Source: an uncultured Acidobacteriota bacterium (lineage in GTDB: Bacteria > Acidobacteriota > CAIWXX01). From it: 53,917 bases of DNA. The notes under the pieces are model-generated. The model did no database searches. It had not been told where the DNA came from and worked only from the letters and a program-made list of their open reading frames with translations. Below, one piece after another: positions 6,545 through 47,473 of the stretch. The stretch's first letter is position 1, and each line of letters opens with the position of its first letter. The stretch is from positions 1 through 53,917 of the forward strand of contig CAIWXX010000092.1 of the NCBI GenBank assembly GCA_903916735.1. Reading direction: 5' to 3'. The position numbers and the translations under genes are program-made.

Positions 6545-7031
6545 TTAGGCTTGATCTTTCGGAGTCGGCTTGTTTGAAAAGGTGAGATCGAGGTTTTTCT
6601 CATTGCGCAGATAGGCATGCCCTTTTTCGTCTGTAATTCAGAACTCATCTGCTGGCGACGTTGCGACAATTTGCTTGAGCCGGGTGCGAATCTCAGACGA
6701 GGATATTGCTGCATGGTTTTCCGCAATATCAACGAGGTGGGCGAGGAGAGTCGCTTCAACCAGCATCTGATACCCGATCAGATCCTCTGCCTTCTCAGGA
6801 ACGTCCGTGACAAAGCGATCACTCGCTTCCAAGACATCGATGACGGCAGCTGCTTTTTCCGCGGCTTCATCGATGAGAGCGCGGCGCGTATCGATGATCA
6901 CGATATAGCTGTTAACGGCCAGTGTAATCGCAAGGACGAACGCAAAGATGATGATCAGCTGTGTCCTGAGTCCTATGAGAATTCTCCTGATGTTATCCGG
7001 CTGCTCATCGACAATATCGGTCTTGACTCAT
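6545..7031 (-). pseudogene. broken membrane sensor N-terminus with in-frame TGA
   Basis: Read on the minus strand from ATG 7031 the sequence gives MSQD. Removing one base of the CC at 7019-7020 lets it continue as DIVDEQPDNIRRILIGL, a membrane helix (LIIIFAFVLAITLAVNSYIV), and an extracytoplasmic four-helix/Cache-like sensor segment. An in-frame TGA at 6638-6640 interrupts ...SPADEF and the frame then continues ITDEKGHAYLRNEKN to a TAA at 6545. The position of the TGA fits a Trp in a DEFWITDEKG-type motif (my recollection of such sensors), so a nonsense mutation is the simplest explanation. A selenocysteine tRNA lies 96 bp upstream on the same strand, so recoding is an alternative. The output domain is absent. 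Confidence 0.55.
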
Positions 7032-27877: not shown

Positions 27878-30800
27878 CTATTCTCCGCGGCCCCCCTGGC
27901 ATGTCGTCTCTTCCAGAAGCCTGGGTTGATGCGAGACACGTTGAGGCTTCATTTCCGCCGGCTTCATTTTGACATCATCCAGAAATCCGATCCAATCAAC
28001 AGTGAGTGAGCAGGCGCCGGCGTCGGTTTCGACCTTCCCGCGAAGGACATAGGGTTTGACACGCGACAACATGTGGCAGAACCGGCGATAGGCATCGGGG
28101 AAGAAAATGGTCTCGTAGATGGCGGTTGTGTCTTCGAAGCTGACGAACTCCATCGGCTCTTCCTTCTTTGTGTACACAAGCTTGGATGTGACGAGCCAGC
28201 CGATCATCGTGACGCGCCGGCCCGTGTGGCGATGCATCTCGGATGCCGGCACGTACGAGAGCTGTCGGAGCACTTCGCGATGGAGTTCCAGAGGGTGGCG
28301 GCTGATTAAAAAGTCCAGGGTCTCGATTTCATGACGAAGGAGTGTATGCGCGTCATATTCATGGCAGTTGCCGGTTGTCGGTTCCCAGTTCCCAGCTTCT
28401 CTGGGAACGCTCTGTCTGGGAGCTGGTAACTGAGAACCGGAAATTTCTTCAAAAAGTCCCGGTTGATGAATCTGCGGCTTCTCGCGCGCCATGAGCTCAT
28501 ACAGCCTCCACATCATGGCCGGGCGTGTCATGCCGAATGAATCGAGACAACCGGCCTTGATGAGGATCTTCACGTCGGAAGGCGGGATGTGCATCCGGTT
28601 CATAAATTCATCAAAACTCCGAAAAGGCCCGTTTTTCCGCCGTTCGGCGACAATCTGCTCGGCCGATGTTCTGTTGAGGGACTTGAGTTGCATGAGGCCG
28701 ACGCGAACCCAACCACGGTCGGAGTTGCCAGTTGCCGGTCCCCAGTTCCCCGTCTCTTTTGAGACGTTTTGACTACTGAGAACTGGGAACTGAGAACTGG
28801 CAACTTCTCTGCAATGAGAATGGCTCAATCCTGTATACGCGATCTCACTTTCATTCACATCAGGAGGCAATACCTGCAGTCCCATCCGCCGCGCCTCGCT
28901 GACATAAGCAAATGCCGAATAATACCCACCCTGGTTTGAAATCACGGAGGCAATGAATTCTGCCGGGTAGTGCGCTCGCAAGTAGGCACTCTTGAAGCTC
29001 ACCATCGCATAGCTCGCGCTGTGCGGCTTGCAGAAGCTGTAGCCGCTGAACGAAAGGATCTGCTCCCAGATCTGCCGGATAACGGCACTCGGCACACCTC
29101 GCTCCCGCGCGCCCTGGAGGAACTGCTGATAGTAATCCCTGAGCTTCTTCTCGCGGTGTTTCTTCGTCAAAATCTTCCGAAGCTGATCGCCGTCGTATGC
29201 CGAAAAACCCGCCAGCGCCATCGCGATTTGTGTGACGTGTTCCTGATAGATCATCACACCGTAGGTCTCGTCGAGCACCGGCTGGAGCAACGAGTGCATG
29301 TGCTGCCATTTCTCGCCGTGCATCCTCCGCACGAAGATATGAATGAACTTATTCGACGCCGGCCGGATGATCGATGTCGCCATCACGAGATGCTCAAAAA
29401 TGTCCTTCTCCTCGTAGCCGGGATAGCGGTTGTCGCCCCACATCTTCTTTAATAACAGGCGCGTCGCCGGCGATTCGATGTAAAAGCATCCCATGGTATC
29501 GCCTTGCTGGATCAGCCGGCATGTGGCCGGATCGTCAGCGGGACGCCAGCGGCCAATGTCGAACTCGTCGAAGCAGTTCTTAGTTCCCAGTTGCCGGTTC
29601 TCAGCAGGAGGAGCCGCGGAGTCACTTAGAACTGAGAACTGAGAACCGAGAGCTCCGTTTCTGCGAACCGCCGCCATGGCATCGCGGATGACGGCCAGAC
29701 TGCGATTGCCGAGCAGGTCGATCTTGACGAGTCCCGCGTCCTCAGTCTGATCCTTTTCCCATTGAATGACCTGTAACCCCTTGGGAGCGATCTCGACCGG
29801 CACATATTTGCGAATTTCATCAGGGACGATGACAACACCACCGCAGTGCAGAGAAATGTACCGGAAGTGCCCGGACAGCCGCCGCGCCGTATCGATGATC
29901 TCCGGCCACGGAGGTGAGAGTTGAAGATCCTTGAATAGCGGGTGGCGTGAGATCGCATCGAACGGCACGTCTTCATACCAGAGCTGCCCCATGCGGCTCG
30001 TGATCCTGCCGATCTCGGCATCCGGCATCCCGTACACCTTGGCGACTTCGCGGATGGCCGCTCGTGCCTGGAGCGACGGGTGATTCGCCACCATCGCACA
30101 CCGCTGATTTCCGAATTTTGAGAAAACGTAGTCGAGTATCCGATCGCGTTCATCCCACGCAAAATCCACGTCGATGTCCGGAGGATCCACGCGTCCCGGA
30201 TTCAGAAACCGTTCGAAAAAGAGATTGTGCCGGATCGGATCGACGTCGGTAATGCGAAGCGTGTAGCTCACGATCGAAGCCGCCGCGCTGCCGCGCCCGC
30301 AGGTGAGGCTGCTTTCTTTGACGATATCCTGGACGAGCAAAAAATAGTGAATGAAACGCTTCTGGCGAATGATGGCGAGCTCATATTCGATTCTGGCCGT
30401 GACAACCGGCGTCAGTTCACCATAGCGCCGGCGCGCTCCGTCAAACGTCATCTGCCGCAGCAATCGATACGCTTCTTCATCATTCAGTGACCGGTAGGCA
30501 GGGAAGATCGTCTCGCGAAAATCCCAGTCGCGCTTGCAAGAAGAGGCAACCGTGAGCGTGTTGTCGATCGCATGCGGAGCGTGAGGGAAGGATTCGGCCA
30601 TCTCGGCCGGCGTTGTCAGATACCCGCGCTCGGTTGCGACATCCTCGGGGCGCAGCCGTGAGAGGCGAGTGTTGAGCTGGATCGCGCGAAGGAATCTGTG
30701 GAAATAATAATCCTCCGGCCTCAGAAAGCGCACACGATTCGTGGCGAGTGGGGGAAGACTCAGCTGCTTGCTCAACGCATAGGCCTGATGTGCAAGGTAA

Positions 30801-31222
30801 CCGGGTGACATCTCAGCGTAGAGATCTTCAGAGCCGCCTCGCTTGAGCTTCGACAGCACTATGGCATCGTCGGTCGCTACGATCAGCCCGTCCCGCCATC
30901 GAGAAATGGCCGGTGCCAGATCAAAAGCCGGATCGCAATGCTTCTCCGAAATGATCCGGCAGAGATTGGAATAGCCGGTGGAATTCTTTACGAGCAAAAG
31001 CGCGCGGTGCCCGCCGTGCACAATCTCACTCCCGACAATCGGTTCGATGCCAGCCTCGCGCGCCGCCTGCAGGAAGAAGACGATTCCATAGAGACCATTG
31101 GTGTCGGTGAGCGCGATCATTCGATAGCCCATTTCCACAGCCCCCGCAACCAGATCGTGAGGTGACGCGACGCCTTCCATTTTGCTGTAGGAGGAGTGGA
31201 TGTTGAGGTGAATGAAGCGCAT
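27878..31222 (-). CDS. dnaE2: error-prone DNA polymerase III alpha subunit (DnaE2 type)
   Basis: 1114 aa; family members are usually somewhat shorter. The N-terminal PHP domain (HLNIHSSYSK, ALTDTNGLYG) is followed by the polymerase core with GRGSAAASIVSY and the catalytic PDIDVDF (about 345-351), KIDLLGNRSL, YQEHVTQIAMALAGFS, then FSGYSFCKPHSASYA and C-terminal HhH and OB-fold regions. It performs translesion synthesis with ImuB. Three hairpin repeats encode in-frame peptides of about 27-30 residues near positions 521-549, 805-833 and 925-953, probably surface loops. The start is ATG 31222; its RBS region (GGAACTGGGAACTAAC) is itself heptad-repeat sequence. It sits downstream of imuB and an unknown gene. 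Confidence 0.9.
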   Translation of the reverse strand: MRFIHLNIHSSYSKMEGVASPHDLVAGAVEMGYRMIALTDTNGLYGIVFFLQAAREAGIEPIVGSEIVHGGHRALLLVKNSTGYSNLCRIISEKHCDPAFDLAPAISRWRDGLIVATDDAIVLSKLKRGGSEDLYAEMSPGYLAHQAYALSKQLSLPPLATNRVRFLRPEDYYFHRFLRAIQLNTRLSRLRPEDVATERGYLTTPAEMAESFPHAPHAIDNTLTVASSCKRDWDFRETIFPAYRSLNDEEAYRLLRQMTFDGARRRYGELTPVVTARIEYELAIIRQKRFIHYFLLVQDIVKESSLTCGRGSAAASIVSYTLRITDVDPIRHNLFFERFLNPGRVDPPDIDVDFAWDERDRILDYVFSKFGNQRCAMVANHPSLQARAAIREVAKVYGMPDAEIGRITSRMGQLWYEDVPFDAISRHPLFKDLQLSPPWPEIIDTARRLSGHFRYISLHCGGVVIVPDEIRKYVPVEIAPKGLQVIQWEKDQTEDAGLVKIDLLGNRSLAVIRDAMAAVRRNGALGSQFSVLSDSAAPPAENRQLGTKNCFDEFDIGRWRPADDPATCRLIQQGDTMGCFYIESPATRLLLKKMWGDNRYPGYEEKDIFEHLVMATSIIRPASNKFIHIFVRRMHGEKWQHMHSLLQPVLDETYGVMIYQEHVTQIAMALAGFSAYDGDQLRKILTKKHREKKLRDYYQQFLQGARERGVPSAVIRQIWEQILSFSGYSFCKPHSASYAMVSFKSAYLRAHYPAEFIASVISNQGGYYSAFAYVSEARRMGLQVLPPDVNESEIAYTGLSHSHCREVASSQFPVLSSQNVSKETGNWGPATGNSDRGWVRVGLMQLKSLNRTSAEQIVAERRKNGPFRSFDEFMNRMHIPPSDVKILIKAGCLDSFGMTRPAMMWRLYELMAREKPQIHQPGLFEEISGSQLPAPRQSVPREAGNWEPTTGNCHEYDAHTLLRHEIETLDFLISRHPLELHREVLRQLSYVPASEMHRHTGRRVTMIGWLVTSKLVYTKKEEPMEFVSFEDTTAIYETIFFPDAYRRFCHMLSRVKPYVLRGKVETDAGACSLTVDWIGFLDDVKMKPAEMKPQRVSHQPRLLEETTCQGGRGE
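28364..28440. repeat. heptad-repeat hairpin within dnaE2 (copy 3)
   Basis: Arms built from AGTTCCC/GGTTCCC-type heptads (28364-28398) and their inverse (28402-28440) are inserted in frame, encoding SQLPAPRQ...AGNWEPTTGN near residues 925-953. Confidence 0.75.
28723..28806. repeat. heptad-repeat hairpin within dnaE2 (copy 2)
   Basis: The best-preserved copy. Left arm 28723-28755 carries AGTTGCC/AGTTCCC units and right arm 28777-28806 the inverse (GAACTGG GAACTGA GAACTGG), around a GTCTC...GAGAC core. It is translated in frame as SSQFPVLSSQ...TGNWGPATGN. Confidence 0.85.
29576..29655. repeat. heptad-repeat hairpin within dnaE2 (copy 1)
   Basis: Left arm TTAGTTCCCAGTTGCCGGTT and right arm of GAACTGA/GAACCGA units surround a short G+C spacer. 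It encodes GSQFSVLSDSAAPPAENRQL near residues 521-549 without breaking the frame. Confidence 0.8.
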
Positions 31223-31238: not shown

Positions 31239-31461
31239 TAACGCGGCAGAGCCGCAACCAACGAAGGTGGCTTCGACAACCATCGCACCCGAACCTCTCA
31301 GGAATGCAGGAAGAGAGGAAAGCAGGAACGGATTTTGATATCGACCAGTGGTGATTCCATAAACCATTCCTGCATTCCTTAAGTTTCCTGAGATGAATTC
31401 ACACTTCTGCATGACCACAACTTTTGCCATTTTGTGCACAGATGTCACCTGTTAGACACTA
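31238..31461 (-). repeat. dispersed repeat A, copy 1 (about 224 bp)
   Basis: Read on the minus strand it runs from TAGTGTCTAA (31461) to GCCGCGTTAG (31238). It shares with copies at 34195, 37215 and 47244 the blocks AAAATGGCAA, GGAATGCAGGAATGG, CCGTTCCTGCTTTC, CTTCCTGCATTCCTGAGAGG, GGGTGCGATG and GGTTGCGGCTNTGCCGCGTTAG. The centre is an imperfect inverted repeat. It interrupts the four-helix-bundle gene. Confidence 0.85.
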
Positions 31462-31535
31462 GTTATCGTGTAAATCTTTACGACTAATTCCACTGCCTTC
31501 TGCCAGACTAGTAATTCCTTGTAATGCTTTTTCAT
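31452..31535 (-). pseudogene. truncated four-helix-bundle (S23/IVP-like) protein gene
   Basis: From ATG 31535, with a strong GGAG RBS at about 31542, 27 codons read MKKHYKELLVWQKAVELVVKIYTITSV. KELxVWQKAxxLVxxIY is the hallmark N-terminus of the four-helix-bundle family (23S rRNA intervening-sequence proteins, relatives of the Avd accessory protein). The family is normally about 115-130 aa. Here the gene ends at the boundary of repeat A, whose TAGTGTCTAA supplies the last codons and the stop. Heptad repeats lie on both sides. Confidence 0.75.
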
Positions 31536-31536
31536 T

Positions 31537-32001
31537 TCATCTCCTTTCCAATAACTGAGAACTGAGGACCGGCAACTGGGAACTGTCATCAAAACTGCAC
31601 CGTAACCATTTTCCATCTCGCCACACAAAATCCGCCTTGTCGATAAGATCTGTTTGTTGGACTTCGTTCCGCATATCATCTGCGTCCCGGCCGGCAAACG
31701 AGATGACCGTCACGTGAGGGCCGGCTTGGTCATCTTCCTGAAACAGATAAATCTTTTTACCCCAGCCGTTGTAAAAAACATTCCTGGTTTTCAGAACGCG
31801 GGAGACAAAGAGCCTTTTCGCATCGGCCGCCGCCGGGTTCTTCATGCAGGTCGCCCCGATGTACTCCATGTGAACGCGTGTCACGTTCGCCAACACCCGG
31901 TCACGACAGTGCAGCGCACATCGCGTGGCCATCGGAGCAAGAGAGAGCGTTGCAAGGACACAGGCACTCAGACGAATCATGATGGATCTGTTCACGCACA
32001 T
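31537..32001 (-). CDS. unknown signal-peptide protein in the mutagenesis cassette
   Basis: 154 aa. The start ATG 32001 (GAGG 5 nt upstream) lies inside the end of imuB, overlapping it by 10 nt, so translation is coupled. Residues about 8-26 (MIRLSACVLATLSLAPMA) look like a signal peptide or membrane anchor. The mature part has a few Cys (CALHC, TCMKN) and a beta-rich central section (KKIYLFQEDDQAGPHVTVISFAGRDADD). The last 20 residues (SSQLPVLSSQ...) come from heptad-repeat DNA, so the natural C-terminus may be lost. No family is recognised. It sits where some imuB-dnaE2 cassettes are contiguous; a role in mutagenesis is inferred from position only. Confidence 0.6.
   Translation of the reverse strand: MCVNRSIMIRLSACVLATLSLAPMATRCALHCRDRVLANVTRVHMEYIGATCMKNPAAADAKRLFVSRVLKTRNVFYNGWGKKIYLFQEDDQAGPHVTVISFAGRDADDMRNEVQQTDLIDKADFVWRDGKWLRCSFDDSSQLPVLSSQLLERR
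31552..31585. repeat. heptad repeats downstream of the unknown gene's body
   Basis: TAACTGAGAACTGAGGACCGGCAACTGGGAACTG is a run of AACTGAG/AACTGGG-type heptads. It is inverted relative to the half-site at 31224-31238 and codes for the C-terminus of the preceding unknown protein. Confidence 0.75.
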
Positions 32002-33383
32002 AGGGACCTCATTTCTGATGACAGAGGGGATCTTTCACGAGGCGCTTGTTGGAGGAGGGATACTTGGAATGGGAGCTGAAGCGGGGGTGCGGAGGAGCCG
32101 AGGAGCGGAGGAGTTGCCGGTACCACCTTCACCTCTGCTCCTCGGCACCTCTGCCCCTCCGCATCCGCTATGGCTTCCTTTTTTTTTACAGCGCCGGGAG
32201 GGACCCGCCCGAACCGGACCGCTGCATATCCATGCTTTCCGCGGATCCGGTCGAGTGCTTCGAGCAAGCCGCTGTGCCGTACAGAAACGTCATCCGATTC
32301 CTCATCGAAATCCAGATCAAGCTGCCTCGGCCTTTTTTCGGCATGCGCGAATGACACCTTCATGTGACGGACCCGTGTACGCCGTTCATTGGCCTTGAAA
32401 TAGAGTTTTTCGATCACTGCGTACAGATCGAAATCCTGGAAAGACGGGATTGGCAGGTCTGCACGGCGCGTCGTTTCAACTCCATCCGAGTATCGCACCG
32501 TCAGTGTCGCATCGCCGGCCCGCAGTTCGGCGGTACGCATCCGGGCCGCGATCTGTTCGACAAGCGAGTAGAGATGGCCGAGGAGCACCCGGTCGTCGTT
32601 TGTGTCTTCGGCCAGCGTGATCTCATCGGCACTGGCCGGCCGGCGCACGGGCGGGCGGACGGGATCGAGGTCGAGCCCAAGAGCGCGCTGATGCAGGACG
32701 ATCGCAAATGCACCGAAGATCATCCGTAAATGGGGGAGGGAGATCGTGGCGATTTCCCCGATGAGCTTCACGTTCAGATCATCAAAGAGCGTCCGCACAC
32801 GGGCATCCCCAACGCCCGGCAGCAGACGGACGCTGAGCGGCGCAATGAAAGATGCTTCATTCCCACGCTCGACATCGATAATCCTTCGAGGAGGCACTGT
32901 GCGAGCCGCGATGCGCGAAACCAGCTTGTTGGCGGCGATTCCCAACGACGCTCTCATCGTCATGCCCCGCTCGAGTTCCTTCTCGACCCGCCACGCCACG
33001 TCCCGCGGCGGCCCGAAAAGTCTCCGGCTGCCGCTCATGTCCAGAAAAATATGTCCCGGCGCGTGCGGTTCCCAGAGCGGTGTGAACTGCGCCACCAGCA
33101 TCCCCAGCGCGCTTGAGGCCTTCTCATAGAGACCTGGGTTCGGCGAGATGACCGTGAGTCCCCGGCAGATCCTCAACGCCACGCCCAATGTCATCCCTTC
33201 CGAAATCCCCTCGGCCCGCGCCTCCCGCGACACTTCCAGCAGCGGCGAACGAGATGAGTGGGGGAGAGCAACGGCAACGGGCCGCTCTCGCAGTCGCGGC
33301 GCACCAACGCGCTCCACTTCGATCCGAAAGGAGGAGACGTTGAGATAGAGGATATCGCGGGTGAACATATAACGCTTCTTCAA
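31992..33383 (-). CDS. imuB: ImuB-like Y-family polymerase paralogue, catalytically degenerate
   Basis: 463 aa. Y-family palm and little-finger architecture, but the first catalytic Asp is Asn15 (ILYLNVSSFRIEVE) and the second pair is D115-M116 (HIFLDMSGSRRLFG) instead of Asp-Glu. This is as in ImuB, which recruits DnaE2 without synthesising DNA itself. A beta-clamp-binding-like QLDLDF sits at about 354-359. The conserved region ends at about 393 (AAVRFGR). The following 70 residues are encoded by a purine-rich hairpin repeat (TPPLLGSSAPPLQ) and are probably acquired. The start is TTG 33383 or ATG 33368. It overlaps the downstream unknown gene. No ImuA/RecA-like gene is present. Confidence 0.85.
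   Translation of the reverse strand: MKKRYMFTRDILYLNVSSFRIEVERVGAPRLRERPVAVALPHSSRSPLLEVSREARAEGISEGMTLGVALRICRGLTVISPNPGLYEKASSALGMLVAQFTPLWEPHAPGHIFLDMSGSRRLFGPPRDVAWRVEKELERGMTMRASLGIAANKLVSRIAARTVPPRRIIDVERGNEASFIAPLSVRLLPGVGDARVRTLFDDLNVKLIGEIATISLPHLRMIFGAFAIVLHQRALGLDLDPVRPPVRRPASADEITLAEDTNDDRVLLGHLYSLVEQIAARMRTAELRAGDATLTVRYSDGVETTRRADLPIPSFQDFDLYAVIEKLYFKANERRTRVRHMKVSFAHAEKRPRQLDLDFDEESDDVSVRHSGLLEALDRIRGKHGYAAVRFGRVPPGAVKKKEAIADAEGQRCRGAEVKVVPATPPLLGSSAPPLQLPFQVSLLQQAPRERSPLSSEMRSLCA
32085..32166. repeat. GGAGGAGC-type hairpin repeat forming the ImuB tail
   Basis: Left arm 32085-32113 and right arm 32138-32166 are an imperfect 29-nt inverted repeat made of GGAGGAG/CGAGGAG units, about 80 percent paired. 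It lies in the 3' end of imuB, downstream of the conserved domain. Confidence 0.75.
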
Positions 33384-33483
33384 TGTGGGAGCAGATCAAA
33401 AATTTTTGCAGACAATGCAAGAAATTCGATGGAAACTTTGTAGACATCTAATTTTTCGTGGGCGAGCATGTCAGTTCTCGACG

Positions 33484-33504
33484 ACGTCTACGTTCACGTC
33501 TACG
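33484..33504. repeat. direct repeat ACGTCTACG x2
   Basis: ACGTCTACG at 33484-33492 and 33496-33504 lies in the lexA-imuB gap. It resembles the ACGTTTACG hexamer repeat at 3297-3343, so it may belong to the same small repeat family. Confidence 0.5.
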
Positions 33505-33536
33505 ATTTTTAAGATAGTTATCATGGTTTCCCTCTT

Positions 33537-34148
33537 TCACCTGACATACCGCACCACACCCACCAGAATCCCCTGGATCTCGACATCCGATGCACTCACC
33601 ACGATCGGCATCATTGCCGCGTTCGCCGGGCGAAGCTCGATTCTCCCATCACCGCGCGGATGGAATTTCTTCACAGTGGCGGCATGCCGATTGAGCAACG
33701 CAACGACTGTCTGCCCGGTTTCAGCCGTTGATTGCCTCCGCACAACGATGTAATCACCATCCACGATACCTTCCTCGATCATCGAATCCCCCTTCACTTT
33801 CAAAACGAAGTTTTCGCCCTTCGCAACCATGGGCGAAGGTACTTCGAATGCATCGAGCTCCTCGATGGCTTCGATTGGTTTGCCGGCGGCGATCGTTCCG
33901 ACAAGCGGCAAGAAAGAAGAGGAGGACTCGCCGGCACCGACAACTTCAATCGCGCGTTTCTGATTCCACGCCATTTTGATGTAACCGTGAGCCACGAGCC
34001 GCCGCAGATAATTCTGCACCGTCCCAAGTGACCGGAATCCGAAATGCTGTGCCATCTCCTCCTGGCTCGGGACCATGCCATTAACCTGCTGAAAATCAAT
34101 GATGTAATCGAGAATTTTCTTCTGTTTGGGCGTCAAGCTTCTTTTCAT
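33537..34148 (-). CDS. lexA: LexA repressor
   Basis: 203 aa from ATG 34148 (MKRSLTPKQKKILDYI, the classical LexA start); an in-frame ATG at 34154 directly abuts the -10 box. N-terminal winged helix with SQEEMAQHFGFRSLGTVQNYLRRL. The C-terminal S24 peptidase domain has the Ala-Gly cleavage site in GTIAAGKP, Ser in GDSMIEEGI and Lys in ATVKKFH. It represses SOS genes and is cleaved on RecA activation. It lies upstream of imuB and dnaE2 on the same strand, with 153 bp before imuB. Confidence 0.95.
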   Translation of the reverse strand: MKRSLTPKQKKILDYIIDFQQVNGMVPSQEEMAQHFGFRSLGTVQNYLRRLVAHGYIKMAWNQKRAIEVVGAGESSSSFLPLVGTIAAGKPIEAIEELDAFEVPSPMVAKGENFVLKVKGDSMIEEGIVDGDYIVVRRQSTAETGQTVVALLNRHAATVKKFHPRGDGRIELRPANAAMMPIVVSASDVEIQGILVGVVRYVR

Positions 34149-34154
34149 ATCCAT

Positions 34155-34183
34155 AATATAAGCGTAAGTTTTGCGTAAGTCAA
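34155..34183 (-). promoter_or_regulatory. lexA promoter, predicting a leaderless mRNA
   Basis: TTGACT (34183-34178) and TATATT (34160-34155) are separated by exactly 17 nt. The start site 7 nt beyond the -10 box falls on the A of ATG 34148, so the transcript would have no leader. Confidence 0.75.
34162..34180 (-). promoter_or_regulatory. candidate LexA operator (direct repeat ACTTACGC)
   Basis: ACTTACGC occurs twice with an 11-nt period (one helical turn) within the lexA promoter spacer, overlapping the -35 box. It is a direct repeat, not the CTGT-N8-ACAG or GAAC-N4-GTTC palindromes. Autoregulation is inferred from location. I did not see the same repeat upstream of imuB. Confidence 0.55.
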
Positions 34184-47246: not shown

Positions 47247-47473
47247 TGTCTAATCGGTGAAATCTTTGCATAAAATGGCAAGACCTGTGACAGGGCATAA
47301 TCATGAATTCCTCTCAGGAAGCCATGAATGGAGGAATGCAGGAATGGCTTATGAAACCACCGCTGGTCGACATAAAAAACCGTTCCTGCTTTCTTATCTT
47401 CCTGCATTCCTGAGAGGTTTGGGTGCGATGATTGTGGAAGTCATCTTGTTTGGTTGCGGCTATGCCGCGTTAG
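47244..47473 (+). repeat. dispersed repeat A, copy 4 (about 230 bp)
   Basis: It runs from TAGTGTCTAATCGGTGAAATC to GGTTGCGGCTATGCCGCGTTAG with the full central inverted-repeat block (GGAATGCAGGAATGG ... CTTCCTGCATTCCTGAGAGG). It encodes an open frame similar to that of copy 1 (FLLSYLPAFLRG, then GAM and GCG-AAL). Confidence 0.85.

Follow-up and report, generated by a model that had tools for sequence, protein, structure and literature searches.

The window, by which we mean the whole 53,917-nucleotide stretch of DNA that was analysed, comes from an uncultured Acidobacteriota genome of 5.37 Mb that is 98.7% complete (G000). ORF calls together with Pfam and NCBIfam searches place four genes in a row on its minus strand, in the order lexA, a Y-family gene resembling imuB, a gene for a 154-residue protein that we call X, and a dnaE2-like gene, which is the layout that a sequence-only reading of this DNA had proposed. 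The features of the region are as follows.

27878..31222, minus strand: dnaE2-like C-family polymerase gene (DNA_pol3_alpha 3.1e-70, PHP, HHH_6)
31452..31535, minus strand: truncated 23S_rRNA_IVP (four-helix bundle) gene of 27 codons, between X and dnaE2 (PF05635 0.0026, below cut-off)
31537..32001, minus strand: gene X, 154 aa, predicted to be exported or membrane-anchored and pilin-like (ortholog in G001, AF2 models and fold comparison, T2SSG profile shuffle test)
31992..33368, minus strand: inactive Y-family gene, imuB-like (PF00817 (IMS) 7.5e-30)
32074..32169, no strand assigned: imperfect palindrome in the imuB 3′ tail, with 38-nt arms that are 82% complementary
33380..33469, minus strand: 29-codon remnant, between lexA and imuB, that looks like the beginning of a gene for a four-helix bundle (23S rRNA IVP-like; by eye; no Pfam match)
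33537..34154, minus strand: lexA (TIGR00498 1.9e-55, above cut-off; Peptidase_S24)
34155..34183, minus strand: putative lexA promoter, TTGACT-17 nt-TATATT (read from the sequence, with the same layout in G001; the match to consensus is presumed)
34162..34179, minus strand: candidate LexA box CTTACGC-N4-CTTACGC, a direct repeat that lies between -35 and -10

Translation of lexA probably begins at 34148 (MKRSLTPKQ). For imuB, an alignment with JACPPM01 (G001) favours the ATG at 33368 over the TTG at 33383; G001 is a groundwater Acidobacteria MAG of a different genus and the one relative from the same family that the searches found. The start of X (32001) overlaps the stop of imuB (31992) by 10 nt. 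This overlap had also been described before, and it is identical in G001, where the order is lexA-imuB-X-IVP gene-dnaE2 and where an ortholog of X, with 44% identity, occupies the same slot despite unrelated repeats nearby. The imuB proteins of both genomes terminate in LCA, and their DnaE2 proteins are 77% identical. Within X, the DRVLANVTRVHME block is the same in both proteins, and the codons, read from the two sequences, differ at synonymous sites only; the last 15 or so residues (SSQLPVLSSQLLERR) look like a dispersed repeat and lie outside the conserved gene. X is thus more than a chance reading frame, since its ortholog sits between imuB and dnaE2 with an identical 10-nt overlap, and, as judged from this comparison, it is a genuine gene.

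X is nevertheless an uncharacterised narrow family. Of the 396 genomes searched from the phylum, none of the other 394 yielded it at the sensitivity of the search; across 84,980 species genomes the single sequence had no match, while a two-row alignment of X matched G001 only, again at the sensitivity of the search, and none was found in viral contigs and plasmids. A weak match in a further genome (G003; E 0.007, 41 residues) was rejected because its frame falls within unrelated ORFs. The sequence-only reading would have been undermined by absence or frameshift of the ORF in relatives; the gene is present in the same-family G001 and missing from the cassettes of five other Acidobacteriota. On this distribution, X is a lineage-specific addition to the cassette, known from two genomes only.

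Such a pattern raises the possibility that X is a passenger, namely a pilin-like gene with a secreted product, which ended up behind imuB, was retained as the overlapping start and stop are hard to lose, and plays no role in the damage response. Its rate of change is compatible with this, since X evolves fast relative to its neighbours, with a dN/dS of 0.44 compared to 0.11-0.16 for lexA, imuB and dnaE2 (rough values, as dS is >1.2), and so are its confinement to one family, the unrelated inserts that the operon also gathers (IVP gene fragments and palindromic repeats), and the stand-alone T2SSG-domain lipoproteins that are common elsewhere in both G000 and G001. However, the core motif is conserved between the two genera, and the DRVLANVTRVHME block differs by synonymous changes alone; together with a dN/dS below 1, this indicates selection on the protein. 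The imuB/X overlap has also been preserved although the flanking imuB tail has changed. We consider the passenger explanation unlikely, though with an appreciable chance of being correct. It is moderately surprising that, in both genera, selection appears to have kept an exported-looking protein together with a mutasome scaffold.

The Y-family protein next to X has lost all three catalytic acids, with D7/D105/E106 aligning to N15/G110/H111 (residues counted from TTG 33383). The earlier reading had deduced catalytic degeneracy from Asn15 and Met116; Asn15 indeed occupies the position of the first catalytic Asp, whereas Met116 is non-catalytic and the Asp-Glu pair aligns to Gly110-His111 instead. 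The N/G/H replacements are common to G000 and G001. The corresponding positions are D/G/Q in the cassette of one other relative (G019), and D/D/E is kept in the cassette Y-family proteins of four more (G034, G021, G059 and G016). In a tree, the G000 and G001 proteins pair up (96/100), G019 is weakly placed beside them, and the protein clusters with other PolY of the phylum rather than with canonical ImuB; a Nonomuraea match was rejected as an ordinary DinB. Near the C-terminus we recognised by eye, from a published description (PMC6511836), a RecA-NT-like motif, ALDRIRGKHGYAAVRFG. The protein ends shortly past this motif and lacks the ImuB-C (DUF6504) domain of canonical plasmid ImuB, and DUF6504 was not detected above cut-off anywhere in the G000 genome.

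ImuA was also missing, as had been noted from the cassette alone, and none was found in the whole G000 genome. In ten Acidobacteriota (G000, G001 and eight relatives) the ImuA profile NF033429 matched RecA-family proteins or weaker hits, all below cut-off; the finding that could have overturned the earlier proposal, an imuA adjoining other dnaE2 cassettes of the clade, was not encountered in this set. The only NF033429 matches in G000 are its two RecA proteins, far below cut-off, and a PF00154 search showed both to be full-length (contigs C82 and C85). A single RecA was seen in G001. Another five Acidobacteriota families or genera, represented by G019, G034, G021, G059 and G016, have cassettes of the form lexA-polY-dnaE2 without ImuA and without X, and the Desulfosarcina ovata plasmid Do28_1 carries another ImuA-less cassette without X, lexA-DUF72-polY-dnaE (L134 1339-7114). 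The DnaE of this plasmid shows 44-45% identity and its Y-family protein shows the same N/G/H losses, but its accessory gene, DUF72, precedes polY. The annotated start of the plasmid Y-family protein cuts off the Asn. From the ImuA-less relatives and the DUF72-bearing plasmid cassette it follows that, as far as gene content shows, a cassette without ImuA is the normal condition here, and that accessory genes are gained and lost.

These cassettes also bear on the suggestion that X takes the place of ImuA, which the missing imuA and the coupling of X to imuB had made attractive. We find no support for such a replacement, because ImuA-less cassettes do without X in five relatives and on the Desulfosarcina plasmid; moreover, X has no RecA-like sequence, is predicted to be exported, and coexists with two RecA proteins available to serve. 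In the canonical plasmid cassettes examined, imuA lies upstream of imuB and not between imuB and dnaE2. We regard a functional replacement of ImuA by X as scarcely credible.

G000 contains a single LexA. The repeat CTTACGC-N4-CTTACGC is found, at zero mismatches, as the sole copy per genome in G000 and G001, in each case in the lexA promoter, and comparable direct repeats with an 11-nt period were seen by eye at the same place in three further genomes (G019, G016 and G025); none was found near recA. The repeat is a candidate LexA binding site. In both genomes (34148-34183 in the window; L034 ~6970-7010 in G001) the -10 element TATATT stops 6 nt short of the likely start codon of lexA (ATG at 34148 in the window), suggesting that the lexA mRNA may be leaderless.

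The exported appearance of X, noted already from the single sequence, is shared by the two orthologs, both of which have a hydrophobic N-terminal segment (Kyte-Doolittle 1.8 and 2.4 over 17 residues) from which export is predicted. Neither Pfam nor NCBIfam, including PF08334 (T2SSG) and DUF6504, gave a match to X, nor did a PDB sequence search with an X profile; on inspection, both orthologs lack a prepilin-peptidase motif (G-F/M-x3-E), and no lipobox is present. Two AF2 models, built from an input of two sequences, contain a long N-terminal helix followed by beta-hairpins at low pLDDT (66 and 68). When these were compared with known structures using VIA-align, the top ten matches of one model were all pseudopilins or pilins (XcpT, EpsI/J, EpsG, PulG, XcpV and FimA among them; Z 5.6-3.7) and such proteins held ranks 1-5 and 7 for the other (Z 6.8-4.5), with best Z values (5.6-6.8) that lie within the range where chance arrangements occur. 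Foldseek alone returned nothing significant (E near 1), and for the second model its top rows were unrelated, with no pseudopilins in the first 50; hhalign of the two-sequence X profile against pilins did not rise above shuffled controls. With a profile built from Acidobacteriota T2SSG domains, the two X cores scored 3.8 and 3.2 bits, with W-G..Y, S.GRD and D..V..DG.[FW] collinear, and joint column shuffles of X equalled the mean score of the two in 3 of 5,000 trials and, in a repeat, in 0 of 3,000. Since the motif had been noticed before this profile was selected, this result is support rather than proof.

Together, the models and the profile point to a weak resemblance of X to pilins and pseudopilins. 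T2SSG (PF08334) pseudopilin-like proteins, including the stand-alone lipoproteins of G000 and G001, share with X the hydrophobic N-terminal helix, a predicted beta-sheet and the pattern W-G..Y / S.GRD / D-[IF]-V..DG.[FW]; unlike them, X falls below Pfam detection and has neither a prepilin cleavage motif nor a lipobox. X is most likely an SOS-co-expressed, membrane-anchored, pilin-like protein that stays outside the polymerase complex, with a presumed role in the damage response.

A different identity is suggested by the position of X. In operons of the Kyrpidia type, a stand-alone ImuB-C lies between the Y-family gene and dnaE2 (PMC6511836), and X could be a diverged version of this DnaE2-binding partner, in which case its hydrophobic N-terminus would not be a signal. 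The slot is the same, the neighbouring inactive Y-family protein has no ImuB-C of its own (PMC6511836, PMC3765255), and the C-terminal half of X is mostly beta with a conserved C-terminal Trp. A home-made ImuB-C profile, derived from six canonical plasmid ImuB proteins, matched the G001 ortholog over 16 residues, a score equalled by 12 of 3,000 shuffles. However, the G000 protein gave no match (1,605 of 3,000 shuffles did as well), and in the G001 protein the two local matches are out of order. The hallmark GPERI..W..RDYF is missing from X, DUF6504 was not found above cut-off in either genome or at the X locus, and both orthologs carry the hydrophobic N-terminal segment. Having been tested with profiles, a stand-alone ImuB-C identity is disfavoured, and we see only a slim chance that it is right.

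The cassette as a whole represents a variant of a type already described. ImuA-less variants have been reported (PMC6511836), and the PolY-DnaE2 operons of Timinskas and Venclovas (2019; PMC6511836) likewise combine lexA and dnaE2 with an inactive Y-family protein bearing a RecA-NT-like motif, in a genome without imuA; G000 likewise has an inactive Y-family gene beside dnaE2, the motif (assigned by eye) and no imuA. The Kyrpidia type differs in having a stand-alone ImuB-C in the slot that X holds in G000, and in the Streptomyces and Bacteroidetes types that slot is empty (PMC6511836). The canonical lexA-imuA-imuB-dnaE2 mutasome has in common with this cassette the LexA link, the dead Y-family protein and DnaE2, whereas G000 lacks ImuA and the ImuB-C domain and has X in addition. 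The Deinococcus deserti operon, lexA-imuY-(243-bp ORF)-imuC (PMC3901139), is also ImuA-less and, compared by its description, also has a small uncharacterised ORF separating the Y-family gene from the polymerase gene, although that ORF is about half the length of X.

On balance, we lean towards a LexA-repressed, ImuA-less translesion synthesis (TLS) operon in which a dead Y-family scaffold works with an error-prone DnaE2, and to which a coupled pilin-like X was added in an ancestor of the family. This ancestor would have acquired X directly behind imuB, in translational coupling with it. Upon damage, RecA would be activated and LexA would cleave itself and leave the direct-repeat box of the lexA promoter, so that a single mRNA could carry lexA, imuB, X and dnaE2. 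DnaE2 may then be recruited to the lesion by the dead Y-family protein, whose C-terminal RecA-NT-like motif would contact RecA, with RecA standing in for ImuA and DnaE2 serving as the working polymerase; this part is the best reading of the sequence features and the published relatives. X itself would use its N-terminal hydrophobic helix to lodge in, or pass through, the inner membrane, would present a small domain of pilin-like (T2SSG) type beyond the cytoplasm, and would therefore be co-induced with, yet not part of, the polymerase complex. It is conceivable, but rather improbable, that X is a dedicated envelope arm of the SOS mutagenesis operon, made in a fixed ratio with the dead scaffold upon damage and altering, for example, DNA uptake, adhesion or the state of the envelope.

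If X does act with the operon, DNA-damage mutagenesis would be tied to a change of the cell surface, for which the papers found in this analysis offer no precedent; a literature search likewise turned up no connection between pseudopilins and LexA/ImuB operons. Were X only a passenger, an inactive Y-family protein and DnaE2 with RecA in place of ImuA would still be the usual cassette in the Acidobacteriota examined, the N/G/H inactivation is common to the Acidobacteriota pair and a Desulfobacterota plasmid, and the operon slot accepts varied accessory genes.

The region also contains repeats. The 23S_rRNA_IVP gene between X and dnaE2, which is intact in G001 (L034 4332-4685, minus strand; PF05635 8.5e-21), is flanked by short inverted-looking repeats in both genomes. 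Imperfect palindromic repeats lie in frame within conserved genes, in dnaE2 (28723-28805, of the SSQFPVLSSQ...GNWGPATGN type), in the imuB tail (32074-32169) and also at 31537-31585; they presumably resemble the in-gene palindromic elements of Rickettsia. Different repeats occupy different positions in dnaE2 and X of G001. Hairpin-like repeats, AGGAATGCAGGA / TCCTGCATTCCT, recur in intergenic regions of the window at 31300-31379, 34270 and 47332-47411.
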